A stretch of 54,032 nt of DNA, from positions 1 to 54,032 of IMG/VR virus record IMGVR_UViG_3300049914_000058. One strand, given 5' to 3'. Source of the stretch: a virus. Position numbers and translations under genes: made by a program. The first letter of the stretch is position 1. Every line of letters starts with the position of its first letter. The notes beneath the pieces are model-generated. The model was not told where the DNA came from and did no database searches. It saw nothing but the letters and a program-made list of their open reading frames with translations. Shown piece after piece: positions 8,159-54,032 of this stretch.

Positions 8159-8197
8159 ATGAAGAAAATTCAATTAACGCAAGGACAGGTTGCTTAA
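8159..8197 (+). pseudogene. Relic of an HNH-AP2 homing endonuclease (first 12 codons only)
   Basis: The peptide MKKIQLTQGQVA then TAA matches the N-terminus of the three full endonucleases at 34874 (MREIPLTQGKVA), 39801 (MKLIPLTQGLFA) and 44101 (MKKIPLSQEQFA). Nothing downstream resembles the rest of the family. It is best read as the scar of a deleted or degraded homing gene immediately behind terL. Confidence 0.6.
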
Positions 8198-34698: not shown

Positions 34699-34734
34699 CG
34701 GCGGATAACCTAAAAAATTATCCGCCGTTTTTTT
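34699..34734 (+). terminator. Strong intrinsic terminator ending the late block
   Basis: CGGCGGATAA (34699-34708) and TTATCCGCCG (34718-34727) form a perfect 10-bp stem with a 9-base loop, followed by T7. It closes the long rightward late transcript. Confidence 0.9.
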
Positions 34735-34735
34735 A

Positions 34736-34763
34736 TTGACTTATTATTGGAACAGACTAATAT
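34736..34763 (+). promoter_or_regulatory. Sigma70-type promoter for structured RNA and HNH gene
   Basis: TTGACT (34736-34741), 16-bp spacer, TAATAT (34758-34763). It starts 2 bp after the T run of the preceding terminator, so it begins a new transcription unit. Confidence 0.65.
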
Positions 34764-34769
34764 ATAAAT

Positions 34770-34860
34770 ATGCGTCAAGATATAAAACAATTAAAGCTGG
34801 ATAGGCTCAATTCTTGGCAGGTACTCTGCCGGTCTTGGCGCAGGCCTATCCGGCTTTTTT
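34770..34860 (+). ncRNA. Small structured RNA / attenuator before HNH endonuclease
   Basis: Starting where the upstream promoter would initiate, AAAGCTGGATAGGC (34793-34806) pairs over 14 bp (one G-U) with GCCTATCCGGCTTT (34844-34857). An inner hairpin GGCAG/CTGCC lies at 34816-34830, and a T run reaches 34860. The transcript could end here as a free RNA of about 90 nt, or read through into the endonuclease gene 14 bp later. The same promoter-hairpin-T-run-HNH arrangement recurs at 43940-44101. Confidence 0.65.
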
Positions 34861-34873
34861 ATTGAGATGATTT

Positions 34874-35377
34874 ATGAGAGAAATTCCATTAACACAAGGT
34901 AAAGTAGCGTTAGTTGATGATGAGGATTTTGAGAGAATAAATCAGCATAAATGGTATTTGCGTAAATTTAAAGGTCGTTTATATGCGGAAAGAGATACTC
35001 GTCCAAAAAGACAAAAAATAAAAATGCACCGTGAAGTTTTAAGGCTTAAATATGGTGAAGATAAAATAATTGACCATCGCAATCATAATGGCCTCGATAA
35101 CCGGCGATGCAATCTACGCATTTGCACAAATGCCGAAAATACTCACAACCAAAGAGCGCAAACAAGGCAAAAAACCTCAAAATACAAAGGTGTTCATTGG
35201 AACAAAAAAGACCATAGATGGCACGCACAAATTAAATATAATAACAAAATATATCATTTGGGAACTTTTATTTACGAAGTTGATGCCGCCAAAATATATG
35301 ATAGAAGGGCCATAGAGTTATTTGGTGATTATGCCTGTCCAAATTTCCCCATTGAGAATTATCGGCAAATTGCGTAA
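34874..35377 (+). CDS. HNH homing endonuclease with AP2-type DNA-binding domain (copy A)
   Basis: 167 residues. N-terminal block IPLTQGKVALVDDEDFERIN and HKWY are the typical NUMOD-like start. The HNH core is KMHREVLR then IIDHRNHNGLDNRRCNLRIC. The C-terminal AP2/ERF-like domain is YKGVHWNKKDHRWHAQIKYN followed by HLGTFIYEVDAAKIYD and ELFGDYACPNFP. It would nick or cut a target site so that its own gene spreads by recombination. It stands alone between two units, not inside an intron I can see. Related copies lie at 39801 and 44101. Confidence 0.92.
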   Translation: MREIPLTQGKVALVDDEDFERINQHKWYLRKFKGRLYAERDTRPKRQKIKMHREVLRLKYGEDKIIDHRNHNGLDNRRCNLRICTNAENTHNQRAQTRQKTSKYKGVHWNKKDHRWHAQIKYNNKIYHLGTFIYEVDAAKIYDRRAIELFGDYACPNFPIENYRQIA

Positions 35378-35867
35378 ATAGTGTTTCTTACCGCTGGACG
35401 GTATCAGGTATAATTGGCGAAGCCTTAAAGTGCTATGCAACCAAAATTGGCGTTAAATAGTATCTCATAGAATATACACAAATCCATAGTTGCTATCGAA
35501 ATGGCCTTTTGTGATAGGCAGATTCTCCCAAGAGGCCGCGTTGCCAACACGACCTACACGGTCGCTACGAAGCCTGCCAAGCCCTTTGTTTGCCTTTTAA
35601 ATCGATGAACGTTCTGCCGTTGGGGTAATTTCACCCAGACGCGCCATATTGCAAAAACACACCCAGTTTTTAAACAAATAACAAGGAAATGTTCGTTTTT
35701 AAGTTAAAAACATTAACGCTGTATAACCCCGCGCAAAATGAAACATATTAAATGGAATAATTCACTTTTCGCAAAGAGGCGAAATGCGCAAATAGGCCAA
35801 AGGGAAAAGAGCGATAATACAAGACTTTATGGAAAAATAAATCTTGTTTAAAATAGCAATTTTTCTA
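35378..35867. other. Non-coding region with a GC-rich structured patch
   Basis: No open frame above about 40 codons on either strand. The middle contains a G+C-rich patch with hairpins, such as CGACC/GGTCG (35550-35564). Two AATTGGCG direct repeats lie upstream near 35416 and 35445. Downstream is TTCGC/GCGAA around 35776. No group I intron core or tRNA could be recognised. It may encode an unknown RNA or regulatory sites for the early promoter that follows at 35868. Confidence 0.4.
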
Positions 35868-35895
35868 TTGACAGCTAAAGTTTACTTGCTATACT
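35868..35895 (+). promoter_or_regulatory. Strong early-type sigma70 promoter
   Basis: TTGACA (35868-35873), 16-bp spacer, TATACT (35890-35895), about 40 bp before the ribbon-helix-helix gene at 35936. It is the best match to consensus in the window and probably drives the early/middle rightward genes. Confidence 0.75.
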
Positions 35896-35935
35896 TGCCG
35901 ATGTATTGATTAACCAATTTTTAGGAAATAGACCA

Positions 35936-36070
35936 ATGGCTAACATATATGTTGATAATGACACAAAAGTAAATCTTGACAAACTCATCGAACGAGAATG
36001 TAGGTCAATAAGCGATGAAATAAAATTTCTTATTGATAATAGGTTGGCAGAATTGGAGAAGGTAAAATGA
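35936..36070 (+). CDS. Ribbon-helix-helix (Arc/CopG-type) regulator
   Basis: 44 residues: a short beta strand (NIYVDNDTKVNL) followed by two helices (DKLIERECRSISDEIKFLID and beyond), the size and pattern of a minimal RHH DNA-binding protein that acts as a dimer. First gene after the strong promoter at 35868, so autoregulation through an operator in the leader is plausible. Overlaps the next start (ATGA). Confidence 0.7.
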   Translation: MANIYVDNDTKVNLDKLIERECRSISDEIKFLIDNRLAELEKVK

Positions 36071-36355: not shown

Positions 36356-37426
36356 ATGTGTCAACCAGCCGCCTTCGTAGTAGATTTTAAGGAGAAAGTT
36401 ATGAGCGAGCCTGCAAGTTTTGCCGTTACCAAAGCAAACGGAGATTATATTGCGTATTGGTCTGAAAATTCCGACAGCCACGAAGTTATCAAAAAAGAAA
36501 ACGGCCTCGATAAAATAGACATCCCGAATGTTCGGGGTGAGGCAAGACTTATTCCTTGCGAAATTACTCCGCCGAAAAACGACTTTAGACTGCCACTCGA
36601 CCAATGGATTTTTACATCGGATATATCGCCGGAATGGGCGGACATGACAGAGGTAGAAAAAGTATGCAGAAAGGTTCTACCGGACTGGCTGGCGGCAAAT
36701 GTGATATTGCCGAAACAAAAATACGACACTACGAATAAGTATTATGCTGCAATTTGCGGCACGATTAACTATGTCTCTGGCGGCACGATTAACTATGTCT
36801 CTGGCGGCACGATTAACGAAGTCTCTGGCGGCACGATTAACAAAGTCTATGGCGGCACGATTGACTATGTCTCTGGCGGCACGATTGACTATGTCTCTGG
36901 CGGCACGATTAACGAAGTCTCTGGCGGCACGATTAACAAAGTCTCTGGCGGCACGATTAACGAAGTCTATAGCGGCACGATTAACTATGTCTATGGCGGC
37001 ACGATTAACTATGTCTATAGCGGCACGATTGACAAAGTCTCTGGCGGCACGATTAACTATGTCTCTGGCGGCACGATTAACGAAGTCTCTGGCGGCACGA
37101 TTAACTATGTCTATGGCGGCACGATTAACTATGTCTATAGCGGCACGATTGACGAAGTCTATAGCGGCACGATTAACTATGTCTATGGCGGCACGATTAA
37201 CTATGTCTATAGCGGCACGATTGACGAAGTCTCTGGCGGCACGATTAACAAAGTCTATGGCGGCACGATTGACTATGTCTCTGGCGATTTCCCTAAAAAA
37301 ATTACCGGTCATACGACGATTGTGAATTACGGTAGTTTAACTCCTGATATTCTCAAATCTTCAAAAGCCGTAATGATAGACCGTTCAAAAGATACGGTCG
37401 TCTGTTATGTGGGGAAAGACGAATAG
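36356..37426 (+). CDS. Beta-helix-like protein with 22 tandem octapeptide repeats
   Basis: 356 residues. The N-terminal domain (MCQPAAFVV, then SENSDSHEVIKKENGL, IPCEITPPKNDFRLPLDQW) matches a recurring phage protein type. From residue about 135 come 22 copies of an octapeptide of the form GTI(N/D)(Y/E/K)V(S/Y)(G/S), then a 45-residue C-terminal cap. Such regular short repeats should form a beta-solenoid with polar faces. AAAGGAG lies 6 bp before ATG 36356; a shorter start at 36401 is possible. Could be a scaffolded binding surface or host-protein decoy; function unknown. Confidence 0.75.
   Translation: MCQPAAFVVDFKEKVMSEPASFAVTKANGDYIAYWSENSDSHEVIKKENGLDKIDIPNVRGEARLIPCEITPPKNDFRLPLDQWIFTSDISPEWADMTEVEKVCRKVLPDWLAANVILPKQKYDTTNKYYAAICGTINYVSGGTINYVSGGTINEVSGGTINKVYGGTIDYVSGGTIDYVSGGTINEVSGGTINKVSGGTINEVYSGTINYVYGGTINYVYSGTIDKVSGGTINYVSGGTINEVSGGTINYVYGGTINYVYSGTIDEVYSGTINYVYGGTINYVYSGTIDEVSGGTINKVYGGTIDYVSGDFPKKITGHTTIVNYGSLTPDILKSSKAVMIDRSKDTVVCYVGKDE
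36758..37285 (+). repeat. 24-bp tandem repeat, 22 units, in-frame
   Basis: Unit GGCACGATTAACTATGTCTC plus four bases, varying only at N/D, Y/E/K, S/Y and G/S codons. Length 528 bp is an exact multiple of 24. Slippage or recombination can change copy number without frameshift. Confidence 0.95.
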
Positions 37427-37497
37427 TTGTAAATAACAGAGCAAGTTCTTTAAAATATAAATATGCCCCCAAAGCAGTTCAATCACGAATTGCTTAA

Positions 37498-39493: not shown

Positions 39494-39801
39494 TGCCGGA
39501 TAAGCAAGGCCAGTTAGTAATGGACTTTACGCAGAACTGGCGAAGGTCTGACCCGAAAACTTCCGAGGATGCCGGTAAGAAAATTGAGGCAATTGGCAAA
39601 GCGGAAAGAGACAGACGAATAATCTTGGCTTGTCTGCGACAACACAATGGCTCGACCGACAAGGAACTGGCAGTATATCTTAAAGGTATTTTAACCTATG
39701 ATGAAATTCACAAACGTATGAGGGAATTGGAATACAAAAGTCTTATTAAAAAAAATGTCAATATCAGACGTGAGCATTGTTGCACAAGGTGGATACTTTA
39801 A
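39493..39801 (+). CDS. Winged-helix DNA-binding protein
   Basis: 102 residues. N-terminal RRSDPKTSEDAGKKIE is followed by a winged-helix pattern (IILACLRQHNGSTDKELAVY, then YDEIHKRMRELEYKSLI). Typical of small phage regulators or of subunits that guide recombination genes. The endonuclease gene B begins at its last base, so that insertion may have trimmed it. Confidence 0.65.
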   Translation: MPDKQGQLVMDFTQNWRRSDPKTSEDAGKKIEAIGKAERDRRIILACLRQHNGSTDKELAVYLKGILTYDEIHKRMRELEYKSLIKKNVNIRREHCCTRWIL

Positions 39802-40295
39802 TGAAGCTAATCCCATTAACGCAAGGATTATTTGCTAAAGTCGATGATGCCGATTTTGAATGGCTAAATGAAATGAAATGGCGAGCAATGGGCAAAAAAT
39901 CAAATCATAATTGCTATTATGCGATTACAGGCGATTGCAATCCCAAAAGAGGGCAAAAAACAATTTTAATGCACAGACTTATTATGAAAGCTACTGATGG
40001 CGTAGAGGTTGACCACAGAGACAATAACGGACTGAACAATCAGCGTTATAACTTAAGAGTTAGCACTCACGCGGAAAATTTGCGAAATCAAAAAATTCAA
40101 GCAAATAATAAATCTTCAAAATTTAAGGGCGTAAGCTTTTTCGGTGCAAACAAAAGCAATCCTTGGACGGCACAAATTCATTTTCACAAAAAGAAAATTC
40201 ACTTGGGTTATTTCAAATTTGAATCTGACGCCGCGAAAGCTTATGACGAGAAAGCAAAAGAGTTGTTTGGGGAATTTGCTCATACCAATTTTTAA
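39801..40295 (+). CDS. HNH homing endonuclease with AP2-type domain (copy B)
   Basis: 164 residues. Start block MKLIPLTQGLFAKVDDADFE; HNH core LMHRLIMKA then VEVDHRDNNGLNNQRYNLRV; AP2-like part FKGVSFF, PWTAQIHFH, LGYFKFESDAAKAYDEKAKE and ELFGEFAHTNF. Closest in the window to copy C at 44101 (shared NNQRYNLRV). No promoter-hairpin precedes this copy, unlike A and C; it is read from the upstream gene through a one-base overlap. Confidence 0.92.
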   Translation: MKLIPLTQGLFAKVDDADFEWLNEMKWRAMGKKSNHNCYYAITGDCNPKRGQKTILMHRLIMKATDGVEVDHRDNNGLNNQRYNLRVSTHAENLRNQKIQANNKSSKFKGVSFFGANKSNPWTAQIHFHKKKIHLGYFKFESDAAKAYDEKAKELFGEFAHTNF

Positions 40296-40306: not shown

Positions 40307-42310
40307 ATGGAAATTAAAATTATTAGTTTGAAAGGTGAAGATTTCAAAGGTTTAAAATATTTTGAAATGAATCTTGACGGTGGAAGTGCAGTTATCAAAG
40401 CTCAAAACGGAGCCGGAAAAACAACTGTTTACGATATGTTTCTCTGGTTGTTATTCAACAAAGACTCTACCGGCTCGACAGATTTTAACCTGCGGCCTCT
40501 GGACGAAAGCAATCAGCCGATTAAAGGGCTTGTATTGTCGGTTACGGCAGAGCTTGAACTTGATGGTGTATCTCATATTTTCAAGAAGGAACATCACGAA
40601 AGAATAGTCAAAGACCAAATCAAGGGTTACGAGACTTTATGCTCCATAGATGAAGTGCCTAAACTCGCCAAAGAATACGCAGATTACATCAAAGAGATTG
40701 TTCCAGAAACTACCTTTAAAGTGCTGACAAACCTGCGACATTTCAACGAGGGTATAACGTGGAAAGAACGCAGAATGGTTCTTCTTGATATTGCCGGTGA
40801 AATAGGAAATCCGGACGGCTTTGACGATTTACTTGCCGCTCTTAACGGCAGGTCAATGGATGATTACAAAAAAGTTTTAGCCACGCAGAAAACAAAACTC
40901 AAAGATGAACAGGCCGAAATCAACCCGCGTATCGATGAACTCCAAAAAAGCTTAACGGCTTATGCCGGGACCGACAAGAAGAAACTCGAAAAGAAACGGC
41001 TTGACGTTCAGGCGGATATTACACGACTCAATGAGCAGCAACGAATATTATTGACACACGAAAAAGACAGGCAGGAGCAAATCGAGAACATCAACGCGGT
41101 AAAACTCCAACGGCAACAGCGGGAACTGGAACTCAAAAACGATACGTCCGGCTCGGCAAAACTGCTCGAGGAAAAAGGAAGTCTTGAAAGTGCCGTTTCG
41201 GAACGCAAAAATGCAGTTATGGCGGCACAGTCCGTTATCTCGAGCGCGAAAGCCGAACTCATTAGCAAGCAAAATGAACTCAGCAGGCTTACGGCAAACA
41301 TAAACGAAATCCGTGATAGATACAACAAAGCGTCTGATGCTCCTACAGATAATACCTGTTATGCCTGTAAACAAAAATTACCAGCCGACAAGATAGAACA
41401 ACTTGAGAAAAAGCGAAAAGCGGACCTTGCTAAAATTATCACCGAAGGCAATAAGATTAAAGAAGAAGTTGATACTTGCACATCTACTATTGCAGACCTT
41501 GAGACTGAACTTGCAAACCAACAGAAAGAACTCGAAAAAGCTCAAATCACCTTAAAGGAAGCAGAAACAACTAAGACAGAACGCTTTGCAGAGATTGATA
41601 AGCTTATCAAAAATAAACAACCGAAAAATCCTAAAGCCGACCCGGCATGGCAGGACCTCGGCGTTGAAATATCAAGGCTTGAAAAAGAACTCGGTGAATC
41701 TGTTGCAGTTCAACTACAGAAAATTGAAGCCGACCGCAAAACGAAACAGGATGAGTTGGCCGTCCTCAATAAATCTCTGGCTCAGGCAGATCAGGCTAAA
41801 CAGGCAGGAGAGAGAATAGCCGAACTTGAGCAGCAGGAAAAAGACCTGGCACAAAAAATAGCAGACATTGAAAAGCAGCTTGCAGATATAGCTAATTACA
41901 ATATGGCCGAAAGCAAACTGATTGAATCATCGGTAAACGGCAAATTCAAACATGTCAAGTTTAAGCTCTTTAATTTTCTGCTTAATGGTGAAATAGAGCC
42001 TTGTTGTGAAGCAATACTGAACGGCGTGCCTTACCCTGATATGAGTTATGGACAGAGGATATTTGTCGGCATTGATATTATCAACATATTGTCGGCTCAT
42101 TACGGCATGAGCGTTCCTTTGTTCATCGACAACAGCGAAGGTATGACATTGCCTATCGAAGCTGAAAGCCAAACCATAGAACTGTTCGCACAAAAAGGCA
42201 TATCAACTTTGACGGTAGAGAAAATTGAAGCACCCGTCAAGTCGGTAAAAACAGCAAAATCAAATTCTAAATCCAGCAAGAAGGGAGAATTATTTAATGT
42301 CAACGCTTAA
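40307..42310 (+). CDS. SbcC/Rad50-like SMC-family ATPase
   Basis: 667 residues. Walker A (KAQNGAGKTT, 31-40) in an AAA_23-type N-terminal half, a long coiled coil (about 205-530) with a zinc-hook-like CYAC at 351-354, and a C-terminal half with SYGQRIFVGIDII and Walker B-like LFIDNSE (D608, E611). Such proteins tether DNA ends and power an end-processing nuclease (SbcD/Mre11); no SbcD-like gene was found beside it, so a host or other phage nuclease may partner it. Directly followed by RecT with a 14-bp overlap, so it is likely part of the recombination module. Confidence 0.88.
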   Translation: MEIKIISLKGEDFKGLKYFEMNLDGGSAVIKAQNGAGKTTVYDMFLWLLFNKDSTGSTDFNLRPLDESNQPIKGLVLSVTAELELDGVSHIFKKEHHERIVKDQIKGYETLCSIDEVPKLAKEYADYIKEIVPETTFKVLTNLRHFNEGITWKERRMVLLDIAGEIGNPDGFDDLLAALNGRSMDDYKKVLATQKTKLKDEQAEINPRIDELQKSLTAYAGTDKKKLEKKRLDVQADITRLNEQQRILLTHEKDRQEQIENINAVKLQRQQRELELKNDTSGSAKLLEEKGSLESAVSERKNAVMAAQSVISSAKAELISKQNELSRLTANINEIRDRYNKASDAPTDNTCYACKQKLPADKIEQLEKKRKADLAKIITEGNKIKEEVDTCTSTIADLETELANQQKELEKAQITLKEAETTKTERFAEIDKLIKNKQPKNPKADPAWQDLGVEISRLEKELGESVAVQLQKIEADRKTKQDELAVLNKSLAQADQAKQAGERIAELEQQEKDLAQKIADIEKQLADIANYNMAESKLIESSVNGKFKHVKFKLFNFLLNGEIEPCCEAILNGVPYPDMSYGQRIFVGIDIINILSAHYGMSVPLFIDNSEGMTLPIEAESQTIELFAQKGISTLTVEKIEAPVKSVKTAKSNSKSSKKGELFNVNA

Positions 42311-43220
42311 TCAAAATCAGTTAGCCCCAAAAACTAAACTTGAAACAATCAAAGACGGTCTTATGTCGCAAGGTGCGATCGCCTTGTTCAAGGACAATCT
42401 GCCCAATGCGACGGGCAAGCAAGCAGAGGAAATGGCAAGGCGATTTGCGAAAATGACCTATACCGCTATTTGTCAGAATCCGTCTTTGCAGGATTGCAGC
42501 ATTAGCAGTATCGTTAGAGCCGCAAGCATATCTGCCAGCCTCGACCTTGACATCGACCCACGCGGCCTTGCTTATCTTGTGCCTTACAAAAACAACAAAA
42601 CCAATAGCATAGAGGCTCAATTCCAAATTGGCTATCTCGGCCTTATGGAATTAGCCTACCGTTCCGGCAAAATTAAAGCTATCTCTGCTCATTGTGTTTA
42701 TGAGTCCGAAAAAGGCAAAATCGAAATAATGAGAATTGATGGTAGATACACCGTTAAGCATCCATTCAGTTATGAACCGCCAACTGGCAAGATTATCGCC
42801 GTCTATGCTTCTGCTGAAATTGAAGGGCTTGGACCGCAAACAATAGTTCTGCGAACTGATGAGGTAGAAAAATTCAGGAAATCTTCAAAAGCTCCGAACT
42901 CTCCTGCATGGACGAACTTTCCAGAGGCTATGTATAAAAAAACTGCTATCCGGCAACTGGCAAAATTCCTGCCAAAATCCATCCTTGAGGATTTCTCAAA
43001 GGGTGCTGCCATTGATGAACAGGAAACCTTTGTTGAAGCAGCGACGGCAACCCAAAGCGTAATTGAGGGTCAGGCGGGTAGCCAAGTAATAAACGCAGAC
43101 TTTGAGAAAAAAATAGAGAAACCCAAAAAGGGCGGTAAAAAGCAAGTAGCATCGGAAGATAAGACGATTGCTGCACCGTCCAGTAATCAAAAAGAACAGC
43201 CAAAGCCGAACTTTCTATAG
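42297..43220 (+). CDS. recT: RecT-family ssDNA annealing protein
   Basis: 307 residues. Residues about 45-210 carry the RecT core: FAKMTYTAICQNPSLQDCSI, SIVRAASISASLDLDIDPRG, AYLVPYKN and FQIGYLGLMELAYRSGKIKA. The C-terminus is a charged low-complexity tail (KKIEKPKKGGKKQVASED). It anneals complementary single strands in phage recombination. It overlaps the SbcC-like gene by 14 bp, forming a two-gene module. Confidence 0.93.
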   Translation: MSTLNQNQLAPKTKLETIKDGLMSQGAIALFKDNLPNATGKQAEEMARRFAKMTYTAICQNPSLQDCSISSIVRAASISASLDLDIDPRGLAYLVPYKNNKTNSIEAQFQIGYLGLMELAYRSGKIKAISAHCVYESEKGKIEIMRIDGRYTVKHPFSYEPPTGKIIAVYASAEIEGLGPQTIVLRTDEVEKFRKSSKAPNSPAWTNFPEAMYKKTAIRQLAKFLPKSILEDFSKGAAIDEQETFVEAATATQSVIEGQAGSQVINADFEKKIEKPKKGGKKQVASEDKTIAAPSSNQKEQPKPNFL

Positions 43221-43226
43221 GATGTT

Positions 43227-43943
43227 ATGAAATTTGAACAACTATATTCCAGCTCAAGCGGCAATTTGTATATTGTCGAATCGTCCAATAACAAACGTCT
43301 CTTATTAGAGGCGGGCATTACTTGGAAGAAGCTCCAAAAGGCCTTGAAATACGACCTGTCAAATATAGAAGCGTGCTTCGTTACGCACAGCCACGCAGAC
43401 CACAGCAAGGCTATATATGATGTGGTCGGTGCGGGTATTGAGGTATATGCCAGTGAGGAAACTTTATCCTTTATGGGTCTGAATATGCACCGCAGGACGA
43501 AGATAATTAAAGATAAAGACTTAATCCGGCTCAAGGATTTTCAAGTATTTGCTTTTTCGCTCAACCATGATGCAGATGGTACTTTAGGTTTTATAGTCCG
43601 GGCAGTTGAAGAAAACGAATATCTGCTTTTTGCACCGGATACCAGCTTTATTACTCAAAGATTTAGCCAGAAGTTCAATATCATTGCCTTGGAGTGCTCC
43701 TTTGATAAAACCATTCTGCAGAACAGAGTAGATACAAACGACATAAACGAAACTCTTGCTAAAAGACTTCTAACATCACACTTAGAAAAATCTGAAACAA
43801 TGCGATACATCGAGAAATTCTGCGACATAAGCAAGTTAACCCAGATCAACCTTCTTCATTTAAGCAAAAATAATATTGATGCCAAAAAGGTACAAAAAGA
43901 GTTTCAAGATAAATTTTTAATTGAAACGATTATTTGTTCTTGA
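43227..43943 (+). CDS. Metallo-beta-lactamase-fold hydrolase (YycJ-like)
   Basis: 238 residues. The metal site THSHADHSK (H54, H56, D58, H59) is near the N-terminus, followed by LNHDADG and APDTS blocks. The pattern FEQLYSSSSGNLYIVES is that of the YycJ/phage MBL group, often annotated as nucleases. It may act as the exonuclease or nuclease of the RecT module; this is inference. The substrate cannot be told from sequence. Confidence 0.85.
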   Translation: MKFEQLYSSSSGNLYIVESSNNKRLLLEAGITWKKLQKALKYDLSNIEACFVTHSHADHSKAIYDVVGAGIEVYASEETLSFMGLNMHRRTKIIKDKDLIRLKDFQVFAFSLNHDADGTLGFIVRAVEENEYLLFAPDTSFITQRFSQKFNIIALECSFDKTILQNRVDTNDINETLAKRLLTSHLEKSETMRYIEKFCDISKLTQINLLHLSKNNIDAKKVQKEFQDKFLIETIICS

Positions 43944-43968
43944 CAACCTTATTTTTTCATAGGATAAT
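43940..43968 (+). promoter_or_regulatory. Sigma70-type promoter before structured RNA and HNH copy C
   Basis: TTGACA (43940-43945), 17-bp spacer, GATAAT (43963-43968), overlapping the stop of the metallohydrolase gene. Near-consensus. Confidence 0.75.
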
Positions 43969-43974
43969 AAGGGC

Positions 43975-44088
43975 GTGAATAGTAACAGTAACAATTCGAC
44001 TCCTAATAATTATGGCGGGTTTGGTCTGTCTGTAAGGACGACCGCACTTCCTGTTACTGGAACTGTTCACAAAACCCGCCAATTTTTT
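43975..44088 (+). ncRNA. Structured RNA / attenuator before HNH endonuclease copy C
   Basis: GGCGGGTTT (44014-44022) pairs with AAACCCGCC (44072-44080), with AGGA/TCCT possible inside; T6 (44083-44088) follows. It lies between the promoter at 43940 and ATG 44101, and the endonuclease ribosome site GGAG is just past the T run. It has the same order of parts as 34736-34874 but no obvious primary-sequence similarity. Confidence 0.6.
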
Positions 44089-44100
44089 GGAGACAATCCT

Positions 44101-44601
44101 ATGAAGAAAATCCCACTCTCACAAGAACAGTTTGCTTTGGTTGACGATGAGGATTTCGCAGAATTGTCAAAGCATAAATGGTACGCCTTCCGGCGAAATA
44201 AAGAATATTCCTATTATGCTATTAGAAATATTGGCATAAAACCTAATCGTGGCAGTGAGAGGATGCACAATGTAATTATGAAGCCCCCAAAAGGGTTTGA
44301 GGTCGACCACAAAGACGGCAATGGGTTAAATAATCAAAGATACAATTTAAGAGTTTGTTCGCGTTCGCAAAATATGGGTAACACAAGAGGACAACGCAGA
44401 AATTCATCAAGATATAAAGGTGTTCACTGGGATTCTCGAAACAATAATTGGAGACCTATGATTTGTAAAAATTATAAAATATTAAATTTGGGTTCATTCA
44501 AAAGCGAAGTTGAAGCCGCCAAAGCCTACGATGCAAAAGCCAAAGAATTATATGGTGAATTTGCTTGTTTAAATTTCCCCATTAAGGTGGTGATTAAATG
44601 A
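44101..44601 (+). CDS. HNH homing endonuclease with AP2-type domain (copy C)
   Basis: 166 residues. IPLSQEQFALVDDEDFAEL; HNH core MHNVIMKP then FEVDHKDGNGLNNQRYNLRV; AP2 part YKGVHWDSRNNNWRPMICKN, LGSFKSEVEAAKAYDAKAKE, LYGEFACLNFP. ATG 44101 has GGAGA about 8 bp upstream; the GTG 43975 extension would translate the structured leader and is rejected. Similar to copies A and B. Confidence 0.92.
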   Translation: MKKIPLSQEQFALVDDEDFAELSKHKWYAFRRNKEYSYYAIRNIGIKPNRGSERMHNVIMKPPKGFEVDHKDGNGLNNQRYNLRVCSRSQNMGNTRGQRRNSSRYKGVHWDSRNNNWRPMICKNYKILNLGSFKSEVEAAKAYDAKAKELYGEFACLNFPIKVVIK

Positions 44602-51034: not shown

Positions 51035-51613
51035 ATGGAAATATGGACACAAAAGGATGTAGACGCTGTAAAGCCAGATAGTGTTGGCGTTAGACATTAT
51101 CCAGCAGATAGCAGCTTTGCGAAGTGGTGCAGCTTTGCGAAGGGGTGTAGCTTTGCGGAGTGGTGCAGCTTTGCGGAGTGGTGCAGCTTTGCGGAGGGGT
51201 GCAGCTTTGCGGAGGGGTGCAGCTTTGCGGAGTGGTGCAGCTTTGCGGAGGGGTGCAGCTTTGCGGAGTGGTGCAGCTTTGCGAAGGGGTGCAGCTTTGC
51301 GGAGTGGTGCAGCTTTGCGAAGGGGTGCAGCTTTGCGGAGTGGTGCAACTTTAAGGAGAGGTGTGAAGCCATTTCTCCATTTTGGAGTTTTGTTTATGAA
51401 CCATCTTTCAAAACGAAAGGTATGATATTACCTCCGCGTGCCTGTCGTGAATTCTGGCAGGAAAAACTTGCGAAATTTAACCTTGATATCATAACGGATA
51501 ATCCTTGTTATGAAGAAATAGCTTCAATAATAAAACCGAAGTTGGCAGAAATTCTTAAAGATAAAAACTGGACAAAATGTGAAAGAAGAATCCTCGAAAG
51601 CTGGAGTAAATAA
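51035..51613 (+). CDS. Tandem hexapeptide-repeat protein
   Basis: 192 residues. From residue 27 come 13 units SFA(E/K)(W/G)C and one degenerate NFKERC. Flanks are a short N-terminal cap and a C-terminal domain (PPRACREFWQEKLAKFNLDI) with helices. A 6-residue periodicity suggests a beta-solenoid with a Cys-lined ladder. AAGGAG lies 8 bp before the ATG. Function unknown. Confidence 0.7.
   Translation: MEIWTQKDVDAVKPDSVGVRHYPADSSFAKWCSFAKGCSFAEWCSFAEWCSFAEGCSFAEGCSFAEWCSFAEGCSFAEWCSFAKGCSFAEWCSFAKGCSFAEWCNFKERCEAISPFWSFVYEPSFKTKGMILPPRACREFWQEKLAKFNLDIITDNPCYEEIASIIKPKLAEILKDKNWTKCERRILESWSK
51113..51346 (+). repeat. 18-bp tandem repeat, 13 units, in-frame
   Basis: Unit AGCTTTGCGGAGTGGTGC, with W/G and E/K variants; in-frame and 234 bp long, then one diverged unit (51347-51364). 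Not a CRISPR array. Confidence 0.93.
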
Positions 51614-53730: not shown

Positions 53731-54032
53731 ATGGAAGCAACAATTCAAATTAAGACGAATCGTATTTATTTTGAGCAATTTGAAGCTCCGTGCGGTGAGC
53801 CGGAAGTAACTGAAATCAAGCAGGCTTGGGCGGCTGCAATTTATGAGGTAATTGAAAAGGCCGGTTTTGTGGCAGAAACTAAAATCGGCGTAGGATTTGA
53901 CCCCGCTGTGCAAAAAATAGTTGTTACCGATTTTTCTGGTGAGTGCGATTGCGAAAAATTGGACAAAGATTGCGAGTGCGGCCATAAGCCAGAACTGCAA
54001 GCCTTTGCAGAACTTTGTGAGAAATATGGCAA
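53731..54032 (+). CDS. Acidic Cys-containing hypothetical protein, N-terminal part (continues at 1)
   Basis: ATG 53731 with GAAAGGG 5-11 bp upstream; the frame is open to the window end. It is the 5' part of the 130-residue gene that finishes at 283. The N-terminal 40 residues contain YFEQFEAPCGEPEVTEIK and a helix, then GFDPAVQKIVVTDFSGE. Function unknown. Confidence 0.8.
   Translation, partial: MEATIQIKTNRIYFEQFEAPCGEPEVTEIKQAWAAAIYEVIEKAGFVAETKIGVGFDPAVQKIVVTDFSGECDCEKLDKDCECGHKPELQAFAELCEKYG
53841..54032. repeat. Right copy of 192-bp terminal overlap
   Basis: Identical to 1-192 except 53905 (G) versus 65 (T); a frame-preserving Ala/Ser change. Shows the contig closes on itself. Confidence 0.93.

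Follow-up and report, generated by a model that had tools for sequence, protein, structure and literature searches.

A candidate attenuator leader of phage homing endonuclease genes in which the terminator is knotted to the RNA 5′ end

Why should a phage gene for a homing endonuclease be preceded by a promoter, a structured RNA and a T run of its own, and why twice in the same genome? The question is raised by a 54,032-base virus record (the whole stretch of DNA analyzed, hereafter the window). Its 192-nt terminal direct repeat (positions 1–192 and 53841–54032, 99% identical) makes it probable that the record represents a whole phage genome, either circular or terminally redundant. A preliminary description of one of the two loci left the choice between a free small RNA and an attenuated nuclease. 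This pair of options was well chosen; the data discussed below favor attenuation, and the short terminated RNA would then be a by-product. With a probability of roughly 55%, judged from sequence analysis, the element is a cis-acting attenuator in the 5′ leader of a mobile phage homing-endonuclease cassette, with a terminator that is knotted to the 5′ end of the RNA and that, in one subgroup, is opened by translation of a leaderless ORF.

The first cassette (copy A; all features of both cassettes are on the plus strand) lies behind the intrinsic terminator of the upstream gene (34700–34734), in which a 9-bp stem with the arms GGCGGATAA and TTATCCGCC and a 9-nt loop is followed by G and T7. As had been described, a sigma70-type promoter (34736–34763; TTGACT-16-TAATAT, 9/12 consensus matches) begins right behind it, the terminator ending at 34734 and TTGACT starting at 34736. 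Six nt behind the -10 box, an ATG opens a predicted leaderless ORF of 31 codons (34770–34865, stop codon 34863–34865), which encodes MRQDIKQLKLDRLNSWQVLCRSWRRPIRLFY and whose stop codon begins 11 nt upstream of the nuclease start. The predicted transcript start coincides with the 5′ arm of a helix, P1 (34771–34781). Then follow the 5′ arm of the terminator stem P2 (34793–34807), an inner hairpin P3 (34816–34830) and the 3′ arm of P1 (34832–34842), which abuts the 3′ arm of P2 with a gap of 0 nt. The latter arm and the T run occupy 34843–34860, the predicted 3′ end of a short RNA. P2 comprises 15 bp (34793–34807 with 34843–34857, then T residues) in place of the 14 bp initially claimed; the order of promoter, structured RNA, T run and HNH-AP2 gene is confirmed. 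The gene encodes an HNH_3-AP2 homing endonuclease of 167 amino acids (34874–35377), and the fold of its leader beats 200 of 200 dinucleotide shuffles (z -4.4).

The same order had been reported to recur at 43940–44101, and it does, with promoter, P2, T run and ORF all in place. Promoter B (43940–43968) reads TTGACA-17-GATAAT, with 11/12 consensus matches, and a GTG 6 nt behind its -10 box opens an ORF of 208 amino acids (43975–44601) that is in frame with the HNH_3-AP2 gene (44101–44601, 166 amino acids from an internal ATG). In the fold, the 5′ arm of P1 (43975–43993) forms 17 pairs with a 2x2 internal loop, the 5′ arm of P2 (44013–44022) is followed by a P3 hairpin with a GUAA tetraloop (44023–44043), and the 3′ arm of P1 (44052–44070) ends 1 nt before the 3′ arm of P2. 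This arm (to 44081) and the T run (44083–44088) together span 44072–44088. A Shine–Dalgarno sequence, GGAG, is located at 44089–44092, behind the T run and outside P2. The leader fold again beats 200/200 dinucleotide shuffles (z -4.5). Copies A and B thus have the same helix order and unrelated sequences.

The two proteins score 29.6 and 36.2 bits for HNH_3 (cut-off 24.8) and 33.1 and 26.9 bits for AP2, below the cut-off of 33.3; Pfam finds no domains in them beyond these two. Genes A and B show the HNH-AP2 (IPA-HNH) homing endonuclease architecture. Free-standing phage genes that join an HNH_3 domain to a C-terminal AP2 domain are a known homing family, according to the relevant part of PMC10448857. 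A third intact HNH-AP2 gene in the window (39801–40295) abuts the preceding gene and has no such leader. At 8159–8196, directly behind a large gene, there is an HNH-AP2 gene start (MKKIQLTQGQVA, then a stop), which is the remnant of a lost HNH-AP2 copy. The window also contains 23 tandem 24-nt units at 36636–37427, which encode a GGTINYVS-type repeat protein with several frames open, and 13 tandem 18-nt units at 51057–51398 with a core that is 90–94% alike. SbcC-like, RecT-like and metal-dependent hydrolase genes follow one another at 40307–43943, with HNH-AP2 genes flanking both sides. A search for empty sites of copy B yielded two distant relatives (36–37% identity) of the metallo-hydrolase gene that lies upstream of it, and in both another gene follows 2 nt behind and HNH is absent. 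This arrangement would fit an insertion of copy B, short of proving homing.

Individual signals carry little of the argument. Promoter-like sites in the region number 33, relative to 32.6 in shuffles, and terminator-like sites 12, relative to 10.1, so neither is enriched as a class and the case depends on arrangement and comparison. BLAST of copy A against phage records returned no match, and the protein of copy A found no relatives as an IMG/VR query, the relatives having come through profile queries. A sub-threshold MicC match at 35864–35972 was treated as chance. With an RNA gene immediately preceding an HNH nuclease gene, the layout recalls an OMEGA/HEARO-like guide RNA of the nuclease, a reading that is improbable in the extreme. 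Rfam gives no relevant match in the window at gathering or relaxed thresholds and no family matching the leaders of 18 related loci (the single hit is a tRNA on L038); the proteins show HNH_3 and AP2 only; and when 11 leaders were compared with the rest of their own phage contigs, exact matches reached no more than 11–13 nt, as they do in shuffles. On this last ground the guide reading was rejected.

What sets the leaders apart is the helix that crosses the terminator. In both copies, P1 pairs the 5′ end of the RNA with the segment directly before the 3′ arm of the terminator, and the 5′ arm of P2 sits between the two arms of P1, giving the order P1-P2-P3-P3′-P1′-P2′-T run. P1 and P2 cross but share no bases. 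Such an order makes a pseudoknot if both helices form together, and otherwise sets them in competition; in two of the other leaders (L186 and L277), coexistence looks sterically impossible, judged from loop lengths only. P1 was absent from the preliminary description, as were the ORF 6 nt behind each -10 box, the gene at 39801 that lacks the cassette leader, and the spread over unrelated nucleases.

To place the crossing helix on a statistical footing, HNH-AP2 genes were gathered from IMG/VR, GTDB contigs and phage records; 312 had usable upstream sequence, which reduced to 225 non-redundant genes by upstream similarity. A stem with a T run ending 3–45 nt before the start codon precedes 67 of the 225. 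A first-pass loose score separated real from shuffled leaders poorly (48/128 at -20, relative to 36.2 expected), and separation emerges only at strong scores or in conditional tests. When the terminator stem was held fixed and the loop and upstream sequence were shuffled, a crossing P1 reached p≤0.01 in 14 of the 67 candidate leaders, where 0.7 are expected, and p≤0.003 in nine, where 0.2 are expected. Copy A has p 0.010 in this test; the value for copy B is 0.197, with only part of its P1 scored. Shuffling the entire upstream region gave p≤0.01 before 30 of the 225 genes relative to 2.25 expected, the other 195 missing this level, and for both window copies 0/200 shuffles scored as well. In a genome-wide scan, scores of -42 or lower were found for nine HNH leaders and at five places elsewhere, one of which is a ParB-like leader; of 108 hits at -30 or lower, 82 overlap coding sequence, so strong chance hits do occur inside genes.

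The leader architecture is associated with nuclease genes. A scan of 38 pieces (676 kb) of 19 contigs, window included, gave 26 hits at -30 or lower outside coding regions, and those with a long ORF 3–26 nt downstream mostly precede HNH-AP2 genes. The other genes behind such hits are an HNH gene (Pfam HNH 53.9 bits), a zinc-finger/HNH-like gene (unnamed by Pfam; the label is a reading by eye), a ParB-like gene (a phrog_1033 match) and one hypothetical gene. Among genes on the same 38 pieces with an upstream gap of at least 80 nt, p≤0.005 was reached by 10/20 HNH-AP2-like genes relative to 9/292 others, and four of these nine, namely the HNH, zinc-finger HNH-like, ParB-like and one hypothetical gene, score -40 or lower. 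The ParB-like gene (L026:590–1504), with its leader of the same type, overlaps the start of an HNH-AP2 gene. The architecture probably also precedes a GIY-YIG gene, with a weaker leader (score -29.5, 0/200 shuffles) and a Pfam GIY-YIG score of 20.3 bits, below the cut-off of 22.6. Only one of 39 non-redundant relatives of the zinc-finger HNH family has a strong leader, a second reaching p 0.047, and the leader therefore seems to track the homing-gene set of a phage and not one protein family. A possible further crossing-terminator leader was seen before a "YKFRAWD" gene of phage G001 (L313:5640–5870; -39.5, 0/200 shuffles).

This spread bears on the idea that the RNA acts in trans, being made in excess of the nuclease mRNA and both binding and restraining the enzyme, in the manner of type III toxin-antitoxin and AbiF/RCd22 systems. 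The gene order of promoter, structured RNA, terminator and nuclease gene matches, and the RNA upstream of AbiF directly neutralizes the AbiF protein, as described in the relevant part of PMC12373285. However, the architecture precedes unrelated folds (HNH-AP2, HNH, zinc-finger HNH-like and ParB-like), the leaders share topology and not sequence, and neither of the two window leaders contains a tandem repeat of RNA. A trans-acting RNA is therefore quite improbable here.

The preliminary description had named a lack of covariation in homologs as an outcome that would refute its reading; P1, P2 and P3 covary strongly in the leaders. Three groups of five leaders each, hand-picked after scanning, were compared; MAFFT alignments match sequence and not helices and were left out of the pair counts. 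In group S (copy A, L025, L166, a second G002 leader, located on L315, and the ParB-like leader L026), double changes occur in 8/10 columns of P1, 9/10 of P2 and 3/4 of P3. All cells are paired in this group (50/50, 50/50 and 20/20, respectively), and 48/50 P1 and 68/70 P2 cells are in group B (L002, L064, L052, L162 and G020a), but the arms came from the scanner, so these percentages are true by construction and the weight lies on the double changes alone. The two invariant P1 columns of group S are the U and G of the start codon AUG. The double-changed columns of group B are 3/10 in P1 and 9/14 in P2. In group K, a kissing form (L140, L175, L135, L037 and L208), they are 5/7 in P1, 8/10 in P2 and 4/7 in H1. 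L025 and L166 share a phage contig, and their proteins are 65% identical; the sequences of their leader helices differ and the fold is the same. Read by eye, the P3 loop of copy B, L025, L166 and the G002 leader is a GNRA tetraloop.

These features also bear on whether the element might work as DNA, its overlapping inverted repeats serving nuclease binding or recombination. I-TevI binds a homing-site-like operator upstream of its own gene, as the relevant part of PMC2988022 reports. The strand-specific T run, the G-U pairs and the GNRA loops of P3 argue instead for RNA, as does a P1 that begins at the predicted transcript start, and a DNA-level role is very improbable.

A further regularity links P1 to translation. 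The distance from the -10 hexamer to a start codon (ATG or GTG) is exactly 6 nt in copies A and B, L025, L166, the G002 leader and L186, as found in a check on a wider stretch that was made after the pattern had been noticed. In L003, the start codon is 4 nt behind the -10 box, L260 has none, and no promoter passed the filter in L026, L277, L348, L091 and L323. In L166, P1 begins 7 nt further in, and for this reason a promoter score tied to the start of P1 had overlooked the promoter of this leader. In leaders of the Bacteroidetes type, a TAnnTTT box, which we take to be the Bacteroidetes promoter box, starts 12 nt before P1 in 5/7. An ORF running from a start near P1 through P2′ is present in 13 of 20 leaders, relative to 4.6 expected from shuffles, in a set hand-picked after scanning, and absent from the other seven. 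Copies A and B both have such an ORF spanning the attenuator. In the six cases with the exact spacing, the ORF extends over the entire RNA and either stops close to the nuclease gene or is fused with it; the leader ORFs of G002 and L026 overlap the next start codon at their ends. The leader ORF was rejected as a universal feature, since it is present in part of the class only. Across the class, the leader peptides lack conservation, suggesting that what matters is the act of translation.

How might such a leader work? The cassette would consist of its own host-type promoter, a pseudoknotted RNA of ~90–115 nt with an intrinsic terminator, and the nuclease gene, and its transcript would begin at the 5′ arm of P1. 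Because P1′ lies 0–1 nt before P2′ and the 5′ arm of P2 lies in the P1 loop, P1 could close once P1′ has left RNA polymerase, just when P2 must form, so that the helices would either knot together or compete. P1 would thus be in position, at the critical point, either to rival the terminator or to seat it. The default would be for most transcripts to end at the T run, as a short RNA in which P1 encloses the 5′ end. The terminator ends 16–19 nt before the nuclease start codon in both copies, which leaves no space for a second promoter; the nuclease must then come from read-through alone, and this favors attenuation over a free small RNA. In the subgroup to which the window belongs, the transcript itself would start at the start codon of the short leader-crossing ORF. 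A ribosome loaded before P1 closes would keep P1 and P2 open, let the polymerase pass and be handed over to the nuclease gene; with P1 closed, the start codon would be hidden and transcription would stop. In copy A, prefix folding gives an RNA ending at P1′ in which P1 is formed (-25.9 kcal/mol), and with P2′ added the terminator is preferred (-33.5 kcal/mol). In nested folding of copy B, P1 is retained at every length tried, and the default states of the two copies may therefore differ. No classical antiterminator that shares bases with a terminator arm was seen.

As the ORF is absent from seven of 20 leaders and, by eye, from the kissing-loop leaders (L140, L175, L135, L037 and L208), ribosome gating cannot be a universal mechanism, and the kissing group must function without this step. 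The same leaders suit a simpler proposal, in which a plain intrinsic terminator lowers nuclease expression, and P1 merely stabilizes the fold without sensing anything. A weak internal terminator of T4 mobE ends ~30% of transcripts, according to the relevant part of PMC2988022, in keeping with this idea. However, the covariation of P1, its constant position at the very start of the transcript and the gap of 0–1 nt to P2′ exceed what a plain terminator needs, and the six start codons with leader-crossing ORFs are left unexplained; we regard a purely passive terminator as rather unlikely. The attenuator reading also has a wider form, which is offered tentatively. In this form, a widespread and as yet undescribed class of phage leader RNAs would control selfish homing nucleases of several unrelated folds through a terminator stem interlocked with the 5′ end; in a subgroup the RNA would start at its own start codon, and the ribosome would have to load before P1′ is transcribed, which would amount to a kinetic test of leaderless translation.

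The restraint of their nucleases by selfish homing genes has been studied mainly in T4-like phages. If the attenuator reading is correct, a compact leader that is reused by unrelated nucleases, its topology kept and its sequence free, would represent a general solution, and it would provide a clean model for the effect of a pseudoknot on intrinsic termination. Through the start codon caught inside P1, a connection of leaderless translation with transcription termination could be tested directly. Moreover, an architecture free of sequence constraint shows why family-based RNA searches would miss the leader.

Several known systems invite comparison. The preQ1, fluoride and ZTP riboswitches combine a pseudoknot and a terminator in one leader, as the window leaders do. 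Here, in contrast, no conserved binding-pocket sequence was seen, the terminator stem is itself a pseudoknot helix, and the genes downstream are mobile nucleases. Ribosome-mediated transcription attenuation of the trp and pyrBI type relies on a leader ORF, a terminator before the structural gene and coupling to transcription, and in trp superattenuation the leader start is hidden after passage. The short leader ORF and the terminator are shared, as would be the tight coupling to transcription and a start hidden after passage, whereas the leaders described here show no arm-sharing antiterminator, have a 5′ end that crosses the terminator in pseudoknot fashion, and carry an ORF that is predicted to be leaderless and is missing in part of the class. 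Leader hairpins of T4-type homing genes (I-TevI, I-TevII, I-TevIII, segB and Aeh1 mobE) cover the ribosome-binding site (RBS) in early transcripts, and transcription from a late promoter within the leader exposes it, as described in the relevant part of PMC2988022. The likeness is that an RNA structure ahead of a phage homing gene limits its expression. However, control of the I-TevI type, which the preliminary description mentioned, does not apply to the two cassettes, where the promoter lies upstream of the whole structure, none inside the leader frees the RBS, and the stem forms a terminator that leaves the RBS of the nuclease outside. In type III toxin-antitoxin loci, too, a structured RNA and a terminator precede the gene for a nuclease or toxin, and AbiF/RCd22 loci have a comparable layout with an RNA antitoxin, as far as the pertinent part of PMC12373285 describes them; the window RNA differs in being single, unrepeated, unconserved in sequence and common to unrelated nucleases. 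Searches of the open-licence PMC literature turned up no paper that, judged by its title and the start of its abstract, describes such a leader. Collectively, since none of these systems, within the parts of the sources cited, has a terminator knotted to the 5′ end of its RNA, and no Rfam family matches, the element is best described as a candidate homing-gene attenuator leader with a new architecture.
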